From Purpureocillium takamizusanense (lineage: Eukaryota; Ascomycota; Sordariomycetes; Hypocreales; Ophiocordycipitaceae), in assembly GCF_022605165.1 (NCBI RefSeq), contig NC_063069.1, forward strand, positions 3,782,001 through 3,846,000: a stretch of DNA of 64,000 bases, in the 5' to 3' direction. Positions 13,559 to 38,891 of the stretch are shown here, in pieces (the stretch's first letter is position 1; each line of letters opens with the position of its first letter). A program made the position numbers and the translations under genes. The notes beneath the pieces were generated by a model. The model saw nothing but the letters and a program-made list of their open reading frames with translations, did no database searches and had not been told where the DNA came from.

Positions 13559-14656
13559 ATGGCCGAAGAGGACCCCCAGAACACCTGCGATGGCGAGCCC
13601 GTCGACCTCGGGCGCCAGGACTTGCGCATCGGTGCCATCTTCATCATTCTCGTCGCCTCCCTCTTCGGCGCGCTCGCTCCCGTCCTGTTGCAGCGCCAGA
13701 CCAAGATGCACGTCCCCAAGTTCACCTTTTTCATCTGCAAGTACTTTGGTACCGGCGTCATCATAGCCACCGCATGGATGCATCTGCTCGACCCGGCCAT
13801 TGACCAGCTCGGCGACCCCTGCGTCACGGAGCGCTGGCTGGGCGACTACCCCTGGGCCCTCGTCATCGGCCTCATGACCGTCATGGTCATGTTCTTTGTC
13901 GAGTTGATGGCCTCTCACTACAGCAACGACGATGACCACTCGCACGGCGGCGCCTCCGACTCGGAGACGGACCCCACCAACGAGATCCTGGCCCTTAAGA
14001 AACCCCCCAAGAACGCGAACCCTCAGACGCAGGCTTGCCCTCATGTGGACGACATCGAGACTGGTCGCGGCACCTCCATCCCCGGACCCCCTGACGATGT
14101 GAGCTATCCTCCGGGCGGCGAGGACCACATGGGCCACCGCCGCGACCACAAGGACGGCGACACGGGCGGCATCGTCGGCCAGCTCACCGCCATCTTCATC
14201 CTCGAGTTCGGCGTCGTCTTCCACAGCATCTTCATCGGCCTCACCCTCGGCACGACGGGCACCGACGAGCTCGTCGTCCTGCTCATTGTCCTCGTCTTCC
14301 ACCAGATGTTCGAGGGTCTCGGTCTGGGCTCCCGGCTCGCCGTCGCTCCCTGGCCTAAGAACAGGCAATGGGTGCCGTACTTGCTGGCGCTGGGCTTTGC
14401 TATCGCGACCCCCGTCGGTGTTGCCGCCGGAATCGGCGCCAAGCCTAACAACGCAGCCACGCAGAAGCTCGTCAACGGCATCTTCGACTCTGTCAGTGCG
14501 GGCATTCTCATGTACACAGGTCTGGTGGAGCTTCTGGCCCACGAGTTCATGTTCAACCCGCACATGCGCCGCGCGCCGCTCAAGATTCAGTTGTTTGCCT
14601 TTGGCTGCGTCGCTCTTGGCGTGGCCCTCATGTCGCTCCTTGCCAAGTGGGCGTAG
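13559..14656 (+). CDS. ZIP family zinc transporter (plasma-membrane Zrt type)
   Basis: Intronless 365-aa polytopic membrane protein of the ZIP family (PF02535) that would import Zn2+, possibly Fe2+, into the cytosol. About eight membrane spans are visible: three in the first 120 residues (IGAIFIILVASLFGALAPVL; FFICKYFGTGVIIATAWMHLL; ALVIGLMTVMVMFFVELMA), a long histidine- and acid-containing loop at about 121-205, then five more. The metal-binding helices are intact: TM4 has EFGVVFHSIFIGLTLG and TM5 has HQMFEGLGLG. The ATG at 13559 follows a favourable CGCCATGG context. A zinc-responsive element of the yeast Zap1 type (ACCTTNAAGGT) was looked for upstream and not found. Confidence 0.95.
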   Translation: MAEEDPQNTCDGEPVDLGRQDLRIGAIFIILVASLFGALAPVLLQRQTKMHVPKFTFFICKYFGTGVIIATAWMHLLDPAIDQLGDPCVTERWLGDYPWALVIGLMTVMVMFFVELMASHYSNDDDHSHGGASDSETDPTNEILALKKPPKNANPQTQACPHVDDIETGRGTSIPGPPDDVSYPPGGEDHMGHRRDHKDGDTGGIVGQLTAIFILEFGVVFHSIFIGLTLGTTGTDELVVLLIVLVFHQMFEGLGLGSRLAVAPWPKNRQWVPYLLALGFAIATPVGVAAGIGAKPNNAATQKLVNGIFDSVSAGILMYTGLVELLAHEFMFNPHMRRAPLKIQLFAFGCVALGVALMSLLAKWA

Positions 14657-15303: not shown

Positions 15304-16327
15304 ATGGCCGGCGGAATCACCGTGCGCGACGTCGATGTAGGTCCTCCCTGAATGCAAGACTCCTAAAAGGCAGCCGGGGAGCACACGTTTCCCTGGCTAG
15401 CCGGACAGAAAGAATCATCACGCACTTCCCATTTTCGCGACCGACGGAAGAAAAAAACGAGAGTCCTCGACGACTTGGCGAATCTTCCCCATGCGGACAA
15501 TGGGCTTTCACGACGACTGCTGGCGAATGGAGGGGTCGGCGGCGCTCCCCGGCTGCGACGATGATGGAACACACGCTCGACACAGCGGTTCCTGATCGGG
15601 TTCCCGCTGCGCTTGACGGCCCTCGAGTTGAGACGTCGGCGCAGTGCGGCGCAATATGACGCGACGCGGCCGGGCAGCAGCCGCCGCCGCCTCCCCTCCA
15701 GGAGCTGAACAGACGCGGGCTGGCACCGAAACAATTGGGATCGAGGAGCAGGCGCGAGGGAGTCGCAAGACTTCTGAAGACGGAATTTGCTAATGGGTAT
15801 TGGTTTCGCCAGGCGCAAAAGTTCATCAACGCCTATGCTGCGTTCCTGAAGCGTCAGGGCAAGCTGCCCATCCCTGGTACGTTGTCCTCCTTTTGTCTGC
15901 CGCTTCAGGACTTGTCGTGCCCCATTGTGTGTGCTTCATGTGCTGACGGCTTCGCCACCACTACACAGGCTGGGTCGACACCGTCAAGACCGGCCCCGCC
16001 AAGGAGCTTCCTCCCCAGGACATTGACTGGTTCTACGTCCGCGCCGCGTCCGTCGCCCGCCACGTCTACCTGCGCAAGACGGTTGGCGTCGGCCGCCTCC
16101 GCAAGGTCCACGGCTCCGCCAAGAACCGCGGCAGCCGGCCGTCCAAGCACGTCGACGCCTCTGGCTCCGTCGACCGCAAGGTCATGCAGGCCCTCGAGAA
16201 GATTGGCGTCCTGGAGCAGGACGAGGAGAAGGGCGGCCGCCGCATCACCCAGGCTGGCCAGCGTGATCTGGACCGTATTGCCCAGACCACGGCTGAGGCC
16301 GAGGAAGAGGATGAGGACGACGAGTAA
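15304..16327 (+). CDS. RPS19: 40S ribosomal protein S19 (eS19)
   Basis: Small-subunit ribosomal protein needed for 18S rRNA maturation and 40S assembly. The model is 151 aa from exons 15304..15336, 15813..15876 and 15969..16327. It starts MAGGITVRDVD and continues [30 protein letters not shown]. The core DIDWFYVRAASVARHVYLRK and the GVGRLRKVHGSAKNRGSRPSKH basic segment are diagnostic. The acidic tail EEEDEDDE is a fungal extension. The first intron is long (476 nt), common for ribosomal protein genes; the second is 92 nt. Both have good consensus sites (GTAGGT...CCAG and GTACGT...ACAG). Confidence 0.97.
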
Positions 16328-16694
16328 GCGCCCCGACACAGGCGTTTCCTTTTCCCCGACGGCGACGGGAGGTTACAAAAAGAGCGCGGAACAAACCAAT
16401 GTTATTTGGGACGGCATGAAACGGGCGTACGGTCTAGAATTTCTGTGATGTATGAATGAGATTCCCACTGGGTCATTCGGTTCACTTGGGCCCGTCCGCC
16501 ATATTTGCATCCTGGTCGTGCGAGAAGTGACGATGTGCCATGATTGATGAAGCTGTACTTGTCCCGCAACGCACGTGGCTGGTTGATGTTGGATTGTACC
16601 AAGAAGCACCTCGCCCTGCCGGCACGCGGTATCCAAGCTCTGACTCTGGGAGTTGCGCGAGCGAAGAGATTGTCGCACTGCCGGAGGAAAGGAA

Positions 16695-16713: not shown

Positions 16714-16913
16714 CAAGCTGGGCACCCACCCTCGCAGCTGGCGAGAAGCCTTGGTACAAGTCCATCTCCCCCACGAACGCCCGTGTGTGCCCTCCCGGTG
16801 GGATTTCTGAACCTGTCATCACCTCGCGGGATGATATCGTGGGGTTCGGCGCTCGACTCTTGTGTGAGAGGGAGCAAAGGTGCAGCGTGGGAGTAGAGTT
16901 GACTCCTCCTAAC

Positions 16914-17047
16914 TCCTCTCATCGTCCCCAAGCCAGAGGCATCGTGCTCGCCGACCACGGGCTCTGTTTCTCTTTTCTCCTCCTCTCATCGTCCCCAAGC
17001 CAGAGGCATCGTGCTCGCCGACCGCGGGCTCTATTTCTCTTTTTCTT
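16914..17047. repeat. 67-bp tandem duplication
   Basis: Two adjacent copies (16914-16980 and 16981-17047), each starting TCCTCTCATCGTCCCC and containing CAAGCCAGAGGCATCGTG. They differ by about two substitutions plus small changes in the closing T/C run. It lies about 430 nt upstream of the deaminase-like gene, so it may duplicate promoter elements. Confidence 0.85.
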
Positions 17048-17472
17048 CTCCTCCTTCACTCCTTCTCCTTCAGCCATCTTCACGATCCCCATCACATCAA
17101 GCTTCGGCGCGCGGCCTAGCTCGGCCCCTACCATCATCAAACCTGACATGTGCGTGGCATGAAGTATTCACCATTTAAGAGCATGAGCTAGCTGCCTGCA
17201 TCTCCCCCCCTCTCTCTGTTCGTGCCCTCACGCCCCCGCCGCCGCAAGTCAACGAGGGATACACACAGGGAGAACCCAATTTACCCCTCTATCTACCCTT
17301 GGGTTCTCTCGCCACCGTTCCTGGTGTGTGGCGCCGTGAAACGAAACTTGGCTGGAGTTGAGTCGGGTCTGCTACACTGGCACCTCGACGCGGGCCCCCC
17401 CGTTTTCCCAATCGGGAAAGTATACCAACACCTCCCCTACCCGCAAACCTCCAAGACGAACGAACGAAGGCC

Positions 17473-19605
17473 ATGGCATCGTCAACCTCGTCCAACGCCC
17501 TTCGCGTGTTTCACTATAACCCCTCCCCGCCCGAAGAAGCCTTGATCATTCCTGCAACCATAGCCACCGCCAGCGCCGATAGCCCGAATATCAGAAACAA
17601 CGGCGGCCCCGCCACCGACGACAATGTCAGTGACAACGATGGCGAAGACCACGATGAGGACGGCGATACTCCCAGCGGCAGCGATGGCAGCGGCAGTAGT
17701 GGCACCAACGACGACAGGCGGCCCCAGCACATCTCGGCGCCGCCGCTCGCCCGTCTGCCGGCCTTTGACAACCGGTTTCGAAGGGGCGAGCCGCAGTTTT
17801 ACTTCTACCACGTGGTCGACACGAGGGATGCGAGCCTGCGCGTGCAGGTGCTGGGGCCGGGGCTGAGCTTCACCTTTACCCACGAGCGCGCGAGGAGGCA
17901 CCTCAGCGCGGGTCGCATCGCCGCGGGACTGCGCCGCAAGACGACGGGGTTTCTGGCTCTGGTGCGCACATGCACTGACAGCCGTAACGGCCACCACAGT
18001 AACAGCCGGATGCGTGACGGAGACAGCACTGACAACAGAAGCAATGGCAACGGCGTTGCTCCCCCCCCTCCTCCCCCCTGCCCTCCCCTCCTACAACATG
18101 ATCGCACGGTCCTAGTCTGGGCAGAGAGCGGCCACGGCGCCGGCCGCGCAGGCGACATGCTCGACGCCGCGCCGGGCGCCCTGCCCAACGGCACGTGGAC
18201 GCGGCGCGCGGTGCGCCTCGCCGCGCTGCTGGGCCTGCGGACGGAGCGGCCGTTTGACACCATGGGGCTACGCGAGGGCGAGCTGGATGCGCGCGCGCGG
18301 GAGCGCCTCAGGGGGGTGTTCCTCGCGTCGCACGTCGAGGTCAAGCTCGCGACGCATGGGGTGTACGCGCTGCTGCATGTCTTTGGGCTGCATCGCGAGT
18401 CCCGAGGGGGACGTCGAGAGTGGCGGCGGCAGCGGCAGCGGCGATCACCACCAAACGGCGTCAATACCGACGGCAGATGTCCTGAGCGACACAGGAGTAG
18501 CAGCAGTAGCAGAAGTGACGCTGGCAGTAGCGGCGGCTCCCTCGATCTCGCCACGTTGACACGCCTGCGGGACGCGCGATGGGATGACGGCTCCCGGCCG
18601 AGGCTGGAGGTGTACTTTTCGCGAAGGAACTGCGTGCCGTGTGGGATGTTTGTGCGGCGGCTGAGCGAGGTCATAGGCGTGAGGATCGACTTGATCTGGC
18701 GGGAGAGGCTGACGCACGTGGTGTACGAGACGAGGGCAGGCAGCGGTGGTGTCCCTCGCGAGTCGAACCTGGTGGCCTCGCGCACAGCTGCGCTCCGTGG
18801 CAGTGAAGGACAGAGAGGATCAGGCATGGTAGACACACATGGCCAAAGCGGCTTGTCCAGCAGCAGCCAGAGACTGCGGCCGCAACATGAAGCCGACGAC
18901 GACGATGACGACGTACAGATGCTAGACGTGGTGGACCTTACTGGGGCGGCGCCGCGGTGCTGCATCGACCTTACGGGGGAGCCGTCGACCGGAACGGCGC
19001 CGCCAGTCTGGGATCTCACCAAGGAGGGAGCAGAATCCGACGACGAGAGCGCTATGGGGCGGATGCACTCGGTCGGCAGCGCGCGCGAGGCTTACATGGC
19101 TGCGTACCTGGATGGGCTCGCCTACTGCGTGGGCCAACTTCCCCAGACGACGACGTCTTCTTCTCAGTGCGATGACAAGGCAGCAGAACATGCAGAAGAG
19201 GCGTGGCGCGCGGTGCGTACGGCGATGGTTGACTTTGCGAAGCGCATGCTGCTCCTCCGGCGAGCGTCGTCGTCCTCGCCGCGCCTTTGCGCCACGGAGG
19301 GACGACTCGCAACCGACTCTTCGACCCAGCAGGAAACCGACACAGGTGAGGGCCGCGATTCAGAGAACGGAAAGAGCATGTCTCATGCGAGACTTGGTGC
19401 GCGCGCGCGCCAGGTGAGGACGAGGCCGGTGAGGGAGGTCAACAAGCCACTGCCCGCGACGCCCGAGACGCAACCGCCGGCGTGGATGATGGACGCAGAC
19501 GGCGAGGAGGAAATGTGGGAAACGGACGAGCCGGTGGAGTATGGAGTGGTGGCGAGGGAGGGGACGTCTGCGGTGGTGATGGCGCCATGGGCTCGGCGTC
19601 TGTGA
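17473..19605 (+). CDS. Deaminase-fold-like protein with three DLT (SIM-like) motifs
   Basis: Open frame of 710 aa with no introns needed. Residues about 101-165 form a conserved-looking N-terminal module (RFRRGEPQFYFYHVV...LSFTFTHERARRHLSAG). The block WTRRAVRLAALLGL to VYALLHVFGL (about 242-305) carries H287-V-E289 in a helix. After a low-complexity insert (about 309-356) a strand leads to C387-V-P-C390 in EVYFSRRNCVPCGMFVRRLSEVIGV. HxE followed by CxxC after a beta strand is the zinc and catalytic layout of the cytidine-deaminase fold. I recall this arrangement from fungal relatives of bacterial single-strand-DNA deaminase toxin (SsdA-like C-terminal) domains. Downstream lie an Asp run (475-480) and three hydrophobic-D-L-T motifs: VVDLT 486-490, CIDLT 497-501 and VWDLT 512-516, resembling SUMO-interaction motifs. 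Activity and localisation are unproven. The conserved parts look intact. Confidence 0.75.
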   Translation: MASSTSSNALRVFHYNPSPPEEALIIPATIATASADSPNIRNNGGPATDDNVSDNDGEDHDEDGDTPSGSDGSGSSGTNDDRRPQHISAPPLARLPAFDNRFRRGEPQFYFYHVVDTRDASLRVQVLGPGLSFTFTHERARRHLSAGRIAAGLRRKTTGFLALVRTCTDSRNGHHSNSRMRDGDSTDNRSNGNGVAPPPPPPCPPLLQHDRTVLVWAESGHGAGRAGDMLDAAPGALPNGTWTRRAVRLAALLGLRTERPFDTMGLREGELDARARERLRGVFLASHVEVKLATHGVYALLHVFGLHRESRGGRREWRRQRQRRSPPNGVNTDGRCPERHRSSSSSRSDAGSSGGSLDLATLTRLRDARWDDGSRPRLEVYFSRRNCVPCGMFVRRLSEVIGVRIDLIWRERLTHVVYETRAGSGGVPRESNLVASRTAALRGSEGQRGSGMVDTHGQSGLSSSSQRLRPQHEADDDDDDVQMLDVVDLTGAAPRCCIDLTGEPSTGTAPPVWDLTKEGAESDDESAMGRMHSVGSAREAYMAAYLDGLAYCVGQLPQTTTSSSQCDDKAAEHAEEAWRAVRTAMVDFAKRMLLLRRASSSSPRLCATEGRLATDSSTQQETDTGEGRDSENGKSMSHARLGARARQVRTRPVREVNKPLPATPETQPPAWMMDADGEEEMWETDEPVEYGVVAREGTSAVVMAPWARRL

Positions 19606-37706: not shown

Positions 37707-38891
37707 TCAAGGCATGGGTACCTCCTGCGTTGAGCAGTGAATGCCACCACCCAGGAACGCCAGGTGGTCAACCGTGACTGGCTCGATCTCCCTGTTCTTA
37801 TATAACCCTTTGATGGTCTTGAGCGCGGCCGCATCCGCCGCCTTATCGCCAAACTGCGGGAAGATCACACCGTCATTGACGAGCAGGTAGTTGACGTAAT
37901 TCAAGGCAGGCGGATCTTCTCGCCCCTCTTCAATGCCTCGAATGGTCTTCTTGTCCAGTCCAAGCGAATACATATCCGCTTCCGCTACCTCGACGATTTC
38001 GAGCTTTCGGCCTCGTGCATCCGTAGTGTTTGAGAGGATTCCACGGGCCTCCCTGTAAATGCGGGTCCAGATGTCGTCGCTAAGCTCACTCGGCCTGCTC
38101 AAGAGCACTTTGCCAGGTGAGACAAATCGCACAAGTCCATCGATATGGGAATCGGTCACCTCGAGGTTTGGTCGACCAGGGATCCAGATTATCTTCTCTA
38201 CAGCAAGTGTGCGGCGCAACTCAGCCTCGACCTCCTGGCGACTTCTGTTCGGGTTCCGATTCGCGTTGAGGATGGAGGCCTCAGTGACCAGCAAGGTTCC
38301 ATCACCGTCGACCTCAAGAGACCCGCCCTCCGTGACGAGCCAGGTGCCCACACGGGGCCTTTTCTCTTCTACCAGAATCATGGTCGCGAGTGATTTGCAT
38401 GAGTCGACCGGATACTTGTTGCCCCAGCCGTTAAAGTTGTAATCGACACCGTGAACGAGGGACTTGTTGTTATCGTCATTGAGGACAAACGTTGGTGCCA
38501 TGTCCCTCATCCACAAATCCAGCTTGTCGTATCCCTCAACAGGCAAGATGCTGATATCCTTTGTTTTCTTGAAACGCTTCTCGGCGTCGCGCACTCGAGG
38601 TGTCGTCACCAATAGGGTCACTGGCTCAAAGAGAGCAACGGCCTCAGCAATAGACGAAATATCTCGGGTTGCTCCCTTGAGGTCTTCCGGGTCGTCGATA
38701 TAGGCATCGTTATGAGCTGAAGGCCAGGCCATGATAACGTGTGATTGGCGCTGCCACTCTGCAGGCCGATAAAATGCGGCGGCAACGGCTTGGGCCATGA
38801 TGACGGCCCGAATAAGAACTTGCATTACAGGCGAAGGAGAAGTAAAAGAAACCGAATCACTTTGAGTCTTCCACTCTTTTGAACATCTCAT
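37707..38891 (-). CDS. Agmatine deiminase / PAD_porph-type deiminase
   Basis: Intronless enzyme of the guanidino-group-modifying superfamily (PF04371), which hydrolyses agmatine to N-carbamoylputrescine or citrullinates peptidyl-arginine. Catalytic landmarks are WMRDMAPTF, TEGGSLEVDG (Glu/Asp substrate binding), DSHIDGLVRF (catalytic His) and the C-terminal GGGIHCSTQEVPMP with nucleophile Cys386. Length is 394 aa from the first ATG (38891) or 372 aa from the ATG at 38825. The second start gives MQVLIRAVIMAQAVAAAFYRP, a plausible signal peptide just before the conserved YRPAEW, so the enzyme may be secreted. Bacterial agmatine deiminases lack such a leader. The family is patchy in fungi, so transfer from bacteria is plausible but untested. 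Confidence 0.9.
   Translation of the reverse strand: MRCSKEWKTQSDSVSFTSPSPVMQVLIRAVIMAQAVAAAFYRPAEWQRQSHVIMAWPSAHNDAYIDDPEDLKGATRDISSIAEAVALFEPVTLLVTTPRVRDAEKRFKKTKDISILPVEGYDKLDLWMRDMAPTFVLNDDNNKSLVHGVDYNFNGWGNKYPVDSCKSLATMILVEEKRPRVGTWLVTEGGSLEVDGDGTLLVTEASILNANRNPNRSRQEVEAELRRTLAVEKIIWIPGRPNLEVTDSHIDGLVRFVSPGKVLLSRPSELSDDIWTRIYREARGILSNTTDARGRKLEIVEVAEADMYSLGLDKKTIRGIEEGREDPPALNYVNYLLVNDGVIFPQFGDKAADAAALKTIKGLYKNREIEPVTVDHLAFLGGGIHCSTQEVPMP

Follow-up and report, generated by a model that had tools for sequence, protein, structure and literature searches.

The window analysed here is a 64,000-nucleotide stretch of the Purpureocillium takamizusanense genome (NC_063069.1, positions 3,782,001 to 3,846,000), in which a single open reading frame of 710 aa at 17473..19605 on the plus strand (JDV02_002946) encodes a predicted deaminase-fold protein; all features of the gene given below lie on this strand. 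The frame was open from ATG to stop and 100% identical to the public protein P0001 (JDV02_002946, 730 aa), and the motifs named in an earlier reading of the DNA letters (the sequence-only reading) were found where it had placed them, showing that the gene and its features are real. P0001 carries 20 additional N-terminal residues, 14 from 16586-16627 and six from 17455-17472, indicating that the public model joins an upstream exon (16586-16627) to position 17455. The annotation of this Hypocreales genome was made with RNA-seq (PMC9302088). The homologue of P. lavendulum (P0002) begins at the ATG of the 17473 frame, which was also the start chosen in the sequence-only reading. P0002 is 49% identical over 97% of the query and is publicly named isotrichodermin C-15 hydroxylase; the name is probably a misannotation, because the protein aligns along its whole length with the window protein. 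A 64-nt tandem duplication (16913-17043, 97% identical, 67-nt spacing) was observed 5' of the frame, within the intron implied by the public model. When the host genome (35.6 Mb, 14 contigs) was searched, the gene was present in single copy; the sole further match had an E-value of 0.097 and contained two stops.

Three protein searches together gave a family set of 158 distinct proteins, one of them the record of the gene itself; each search scored approximately 8,000 candidates sharing exact words, and many matches carried no name; from one search, which 122 proteins passed, the best 120 of 122 entered the set. All named homologues belonged to genera of the Hypocreales, 13 of which were confirmed by look-up. 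A profile built from 117 aligned rows gave seven matches when compared with PDB sequences (E 0.012 to 5.1), including three cytochrome b562 fusions and one cytidine/dCMP deaminase-domain protein (E 0.32); these were judged chance or weak matches and were set aside.

The N-terminus (residues 1-97, 17473..17763) was mostly disordered, with a predicted local distance difference test (pLDDT) score mostly below 50 up to residue 90. It was followed by the predicted deaminase core (residues 98-418, 17764..18726), which contained two low-confidence inserts at about 168-207 and 304-358. The strongly conserved-looking block of the sequence-only reading corresponded to AESGHG (residues 217-222, 18121..18138), in which S219 and G220 were kept in 114/114 rows with a letter in the 117-row alignment, window protein included. 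In the same alignment H287 was conserved in 116/116 rows with a letter, E289 in 117/117, C387 in 116/116 and C390 in 116/116. H287-V288-E289 (18331..18339) would provide a zinc ligand and the catalytic glutamate, and C387-V-P-C390 (18631..18642) the other zinc ligands. Across the family HxE was present in 157/158 proteins, the exception (P0117) being a fragment that starts inside the motif, and CxxC in 155/158, where P0114 stops before the motif and P0143 and P0158 are models without that stretch. Homologues lacking these residues had been named as evidence that would count against a deaminase; only truncated or internally deleted models lacked them. SG was followed by H in 146 of the 158 proteins and by N in 6. 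The variable linker between the two zinc motifs (304-358, 18382..18546) contained a basic cluster, RREWRRQRQRR (314-324), which is a possible nuclear localisation signal.

The deaminase fold claimed from the letters was borne out by structure prediction and fold search. The core model, built from an alignment of 87/158 proteins and the window protein with fragments excluded, had a predicted template modelling score (pTM) of 0.79, and ranks 1-31 of the 39 VIA matches listed were deaminases. In the predicted model H287-V-E289 sat where helix 288-303 starts, and C387-x-x-C390 came after strand 377-382, where helix 388-401 starts, in agreement with the helix and strand-helix layout proposed earlier. 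HxE and CxxC thus each sit at the N-terminal end of a core helix, as predicted for a member of the deaminase superfamily. Helix 388-401 was followed by strand 404-409 and, two residues on, by a two-residue strand, and the model was then helix-free until residue 534. These strands may correspond to the antiparallel strands 4 and 5, with no intervening helix, that mark the C-terminal hairpin division. From superposition on SsdA, H287, E289, C387 and C390 are expected to meet at one zinc site. AESGHG probably corresponds to the SGW loop in the active site of SsdA. The fold is also common to guanine, dCMP and cytidine deaminases, which would suit a protein acting on a non-polymer substrate (nucleotide, modified base or protein) or serving as a zinc-binding scaffold; we hold this to be the least probable of the explanations considered.

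Kinship with SsdA-like deaminases was indicated by profile matches in the relatives together with the VIA fold ranking. SsdA_C (PF24120) matched 15/20 family members at E<=1. When seven relatives were scanned singly, six matched, four of them above the family cut-off, and in 6/6 matching relatives the match ran from the A[EQ]SGHG motif to just past HVE. The proposed profile check gave matches in most of the relatives scanned but none in the window protein itself, whose kinship with SsdA is assigned because of the fold and of relatives 32-57% identical to it.

The tail following the core contained an Asp run (475-480, 18895..18912) and, downstream of it, VVDLT (486-490, 18928..18942), CIDLT (497-501, 18961..18975) and VWDLT (512-516, 19006..19020), confirming that the three motifs span 31 residues. 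When the window tail was shuffled 100,000 times, at least three [VILW]DLT motifs occurred in one shuffle and at least one in 1,612. Tails were counted in 146 of the 158 proteins, among them four tail-less proteins and the public record of the gene itself; the other 12 fell outside the strict pattern and were covered by the looser HxE and CxxC counts above. At least one [VIL]DLT was present in 69/146 tails (shuffle mean 1.36, max 5; related species counted) and in 50/114 tails (shuffle mean 1.2, max 6), the latter set being the 117 aligned rows minus three with tails <60 aa. Because the counts included related species, the 74 motif-bearing proteins were thinned to 42 that shared <60% identity in the motif region; up to 55% of these rows had acidic residues at the richest upstream positions. 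VVDLT, which follows six Asp residues, lies where pLDDT is <50 and is widespread in the family, thus has the sequence characters that would be expected of a SUMO-interaction motif (SIM). The suggested tandem of SIMs had weaker support than the sequence-only reading implied: one DLT motif was widespread but not universal, whereas the other two were lineage-restricted and poorer SIM matches. Among 20 aligned proteins, DLT at the CIDLT position was also present in P. lavendulum, Tolypocladium capitatum and Drechmeria coniospora, and DLT at the VWDLT position, a weak SIM candidate, only in two Purpureocillium species. Other genera had DLT repeats of their own, e.g., Clonostachys with three copies.

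Within a tree of 51 named proteins hand-picked from the 158, 31 proteins (18 genera) had one or more [VILMF]D[LF]T, a further five, all Trichoderma, had variants only (e.g., IDLS or INLT), and 15 had neither motif nor variant, although five of these 15 retained VDL without T or S. The tail also contained a predicted helical stretch (534-600, 19072..19272) with the conserved motif GLAYCVGQ, found in 104/146 tails and in none of 200 shuffles. Both the DLT motif and this helical module were missing from Beauveria, Cordyceps, Akanthomyces, Lecanicillium, Aphanocladium, [Torrubiella], Ophiocordyceps australis, Geosmithia and Escovopsis. Further downstream, KPLPATP (658-664, 19444..19464) was a conserved short motif (PLPAT in 108/146 tails; shuffle mean 0.11), which we take to fit an SH3-ligand or CDK/Cdc4-degron pattern. 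Beauveria, Cordyceps and similar species kept KPLPATP when the GLAYCVGQ module was missing.

What was directly established is the sequence, the near-invariant catalytic residues, the predicted fold, the SsdA_C homology of the relatives and the conservation of the motifs. From these we infer catalysis, a DNA substrate, SUMO binding, a nuclear site and a biological purpose, and propose the following role. The protein would belong to the SsdA/DYW group and act inside the cell as a zinc-dependent cytosine deaminase, in which H287, C387 and C390 hold the zinc, E289 shuttles the proton and the AESGHG loop is placed where SsdA carries the SGW substrate loop. Its disordered acidic tail would carry at least one SIM (VVDLT), with two weaker ones after it in Purpureocillium, through which the enzyme would be recruited to proteins modified by SUMO; the likeliest of these are complexes of chromatin or DNA repair exposing single-stranded DNA, on which C would be converted to U. 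We give about an even chance to a cytosine deaminase that works in the nucleus, is recruited through SUMO and acts on single-stranded DNA where this is exposed.

Several observations weigh against this reading. The Pfam scan of the window protein gave no match at all, SsdA_C included, and its comparison with Pfam, NCBIfam and PDB sequences gave nothing meaningful. Foldseek alone found nothing at E<=0.001 for the core model, with unrelated top matches and SsdA at E 1.2 (prob 0.69), and SsdA was absent among the best 50 matches of the full model; because Foldseek alone was uninformative, the fold claim rests on the second look with VIA. The motifs HAE, CxDC and SGW, by which BaDTF2 toxins are characterised (PMC11789416; PMC7901873), were absent from the window protein, which had HVE, CVPC and SGH instead. 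Finally, [VIL]DLT was missing from 77/146 tails, showing that the family can do without recruitment by the motif, and of the three motifs only VVDLT fits what we take to be the canonical SIM pattern, CIDLT and VWDLT being poorer matches. The last two points would also suit a real deaminase whose DLT motifs bind a partner other than SUMO or act as phospho-sites, an explanation that overlaps the others considered here and is not exclusive of them. We regard it as possible though well short of probable, since in the 42 thinned tails a hydrophobic-D-L-T core preceded by acid resembles a PIAS-type SIM (PMC3901395); the strong PIAS SIM described there has VIDLT as its core, and acidic flanks are linked to high affinity.

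A DYW-like enzyme that edits RNA from C to U, targeted via SUMO or another partner instead of pentatricopeptide repeats (PPR), is unlikely: SsdA was the closer match and prefers single-stranded DNA, no PPR or other RNA-binding family was matched in the Pfam scan of the window protein or listed for the 20 family members, and a SIM would be better suited to chromatin factors. A paper on RNA editing in Coprinopsis reports no PPR-DYW protein in that fungus (PMC10532568). Somewhat more unlikely is a conflict effector, i.e., a bacterial toxin domain acquired by fungi and used for heterokaryon incompatibility or against other strains or selfish elements. The nearest fold was indeed that of an interbacterial toxin, and Zhang et al. 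2012 propose such uses of deaminase toxins acquired by fungi (PMC3482391). However, the gene is single copy and occurs with strict catalytic conservation in many Hypocreales genera, and a scan of GTDB with the family alignment, which tests close relatives only, yielded 41 pattern matches but, by tblastn, no bacterial relative. Neither a membrane nor a secretion signal was obvious in the protein by Kyte-Doolittle hydropathy, the one measure applied. This lack, together with the strict catalytic conservation and the single copy, favours a cellular job over a secreted toxin.

The nearest neighbours with a Pfam match were a ZIP transporter gene upstream (13559-14656) and a P-type ATPase downstream on the minus strand. 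The resemblance of the frame at 15735-16448 to a ribosomal protein was unsupported, with no Pfam match. Elsewhere in the window, 37707-38891 on the minus strand matched the Porphyromonas-type peptidyl-arginine deiminase family (E 2.2e-93). The genome contained two C5-methyltransferase loci and two uracil-DNA-glycosylase loci. Three DDE_1 transposase copies were found in it (L011, L012 and L013, at G000:C2:3765557-3766060, C2:3721093-3721575 and C6:1930247-1930540), two of which lay to the left of the window, at distances of approximately 16 and 60 kb. Each copy had 9-13 in-frame stops, exclusively TAG and TAA. In their middle 600 bases TpA/ApT was 1.6-1.95, compared with 0.67 in the window, and (CpA+TpG)/(ApC+GpT) was 0.15-0.38, compared with 1.19. 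These stops and indices, which resemble the damage left by repeat-induced point mutation (RIP), suggest that repeats in this lineage underwent C-to-T mutation in CpA context.

We know of no enzyme assigned to the deamination step of RIP. It is improbable that the Hypocreales use a DNA cytosine deaminase of their own, guided by SUMO, to mutate repeats or other marked DNA, as a dedicated C-to-T mutator beside or within RIP. The RIP-like damage and the two C5-methyltransferase loci bear on it, but nothing ties the deaminase to that damage. The named homologues found were all from the Hypocreales, although RIP is known from Neurospora, and a literature search for RIP with deaminase yielded nothing useful. 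The target preference of SsdA is YCY (PMC7901873), so the RIP-like damage does not implicate the window deaminase.

Databases already list SsdA-type domains of fungi: a Pfam SsdA_C match was precomputed for 6/20 of the first homologues, Metarhizium members are named after SsdA in UniProt, and the transfer of toxin deaminases to fungi is discussed by Zhang et al. 2012 (PMC3482391). In the open-licence literature searched, no paper on a fungal deaminase joined to SIMs and no tested role for a fungal SsdA-type deaminase was found. Intact catalytic residues, single copy, retention across an order and a tail of the SUMO-binding type suggest a domesticated base editor with a cellular job. If so, these moulds may have their own targeted DNA- or RNA-editing enzyme, and the family may serve as a eukaryotic source of SsdA-type editor domains.

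Among known systems, the closest is SsdA/BaDTF2, the single-stranded DNA cytidine deaminase of the Pseudomonas syringae type VI secretion system. Because HVE, CVPC and SGH replace HAE, CxDC and SGW, the fungal protein, which fold and homology place in the SsdA/DYW group, is classed there as a divergent fungal branch and not as a BaDTF2 toxin. Unlike SsdA, it is eukaryotic and single copy and has a long disordered tail with DLT motifs; the toxin delivery and immunity partner of SsdA were not seen for it, no search for an immunity protein having been made. DYW deaminases of plant organellar RNA editing end in DYW and carry PPR, whereas the fungal protein ends in APWARRL. AID/APOBEC enzymes have a helix between strands 4 and 5, whereas the fungal model is predicted to be helix-free over 402-533 and had a lower fold score against them. 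OTT_1508_deam (PF14441) is another Pfam family of the deaminase superfamily with two genes in the same genome (L001 and L002, at G000:C2:3677176-3677352 and C2:5741802-5741987), and [VILM]D[LF][TS] was present in 0/2 of their open frames, the part covered. The tail itself is most like PIAS SIMb (VIDLT) and the tandem SIMs of RNF4, with which it shares a hydrophobic-D-L-T core in an acidic disordered tract, in tandem in some species (PMC3901395). However, the SIMs of PIAS and RNF4 belong to ligases of the SUMO or ubiquitin pathway, whereas the fungal DLT motif is joined to a deaminase.
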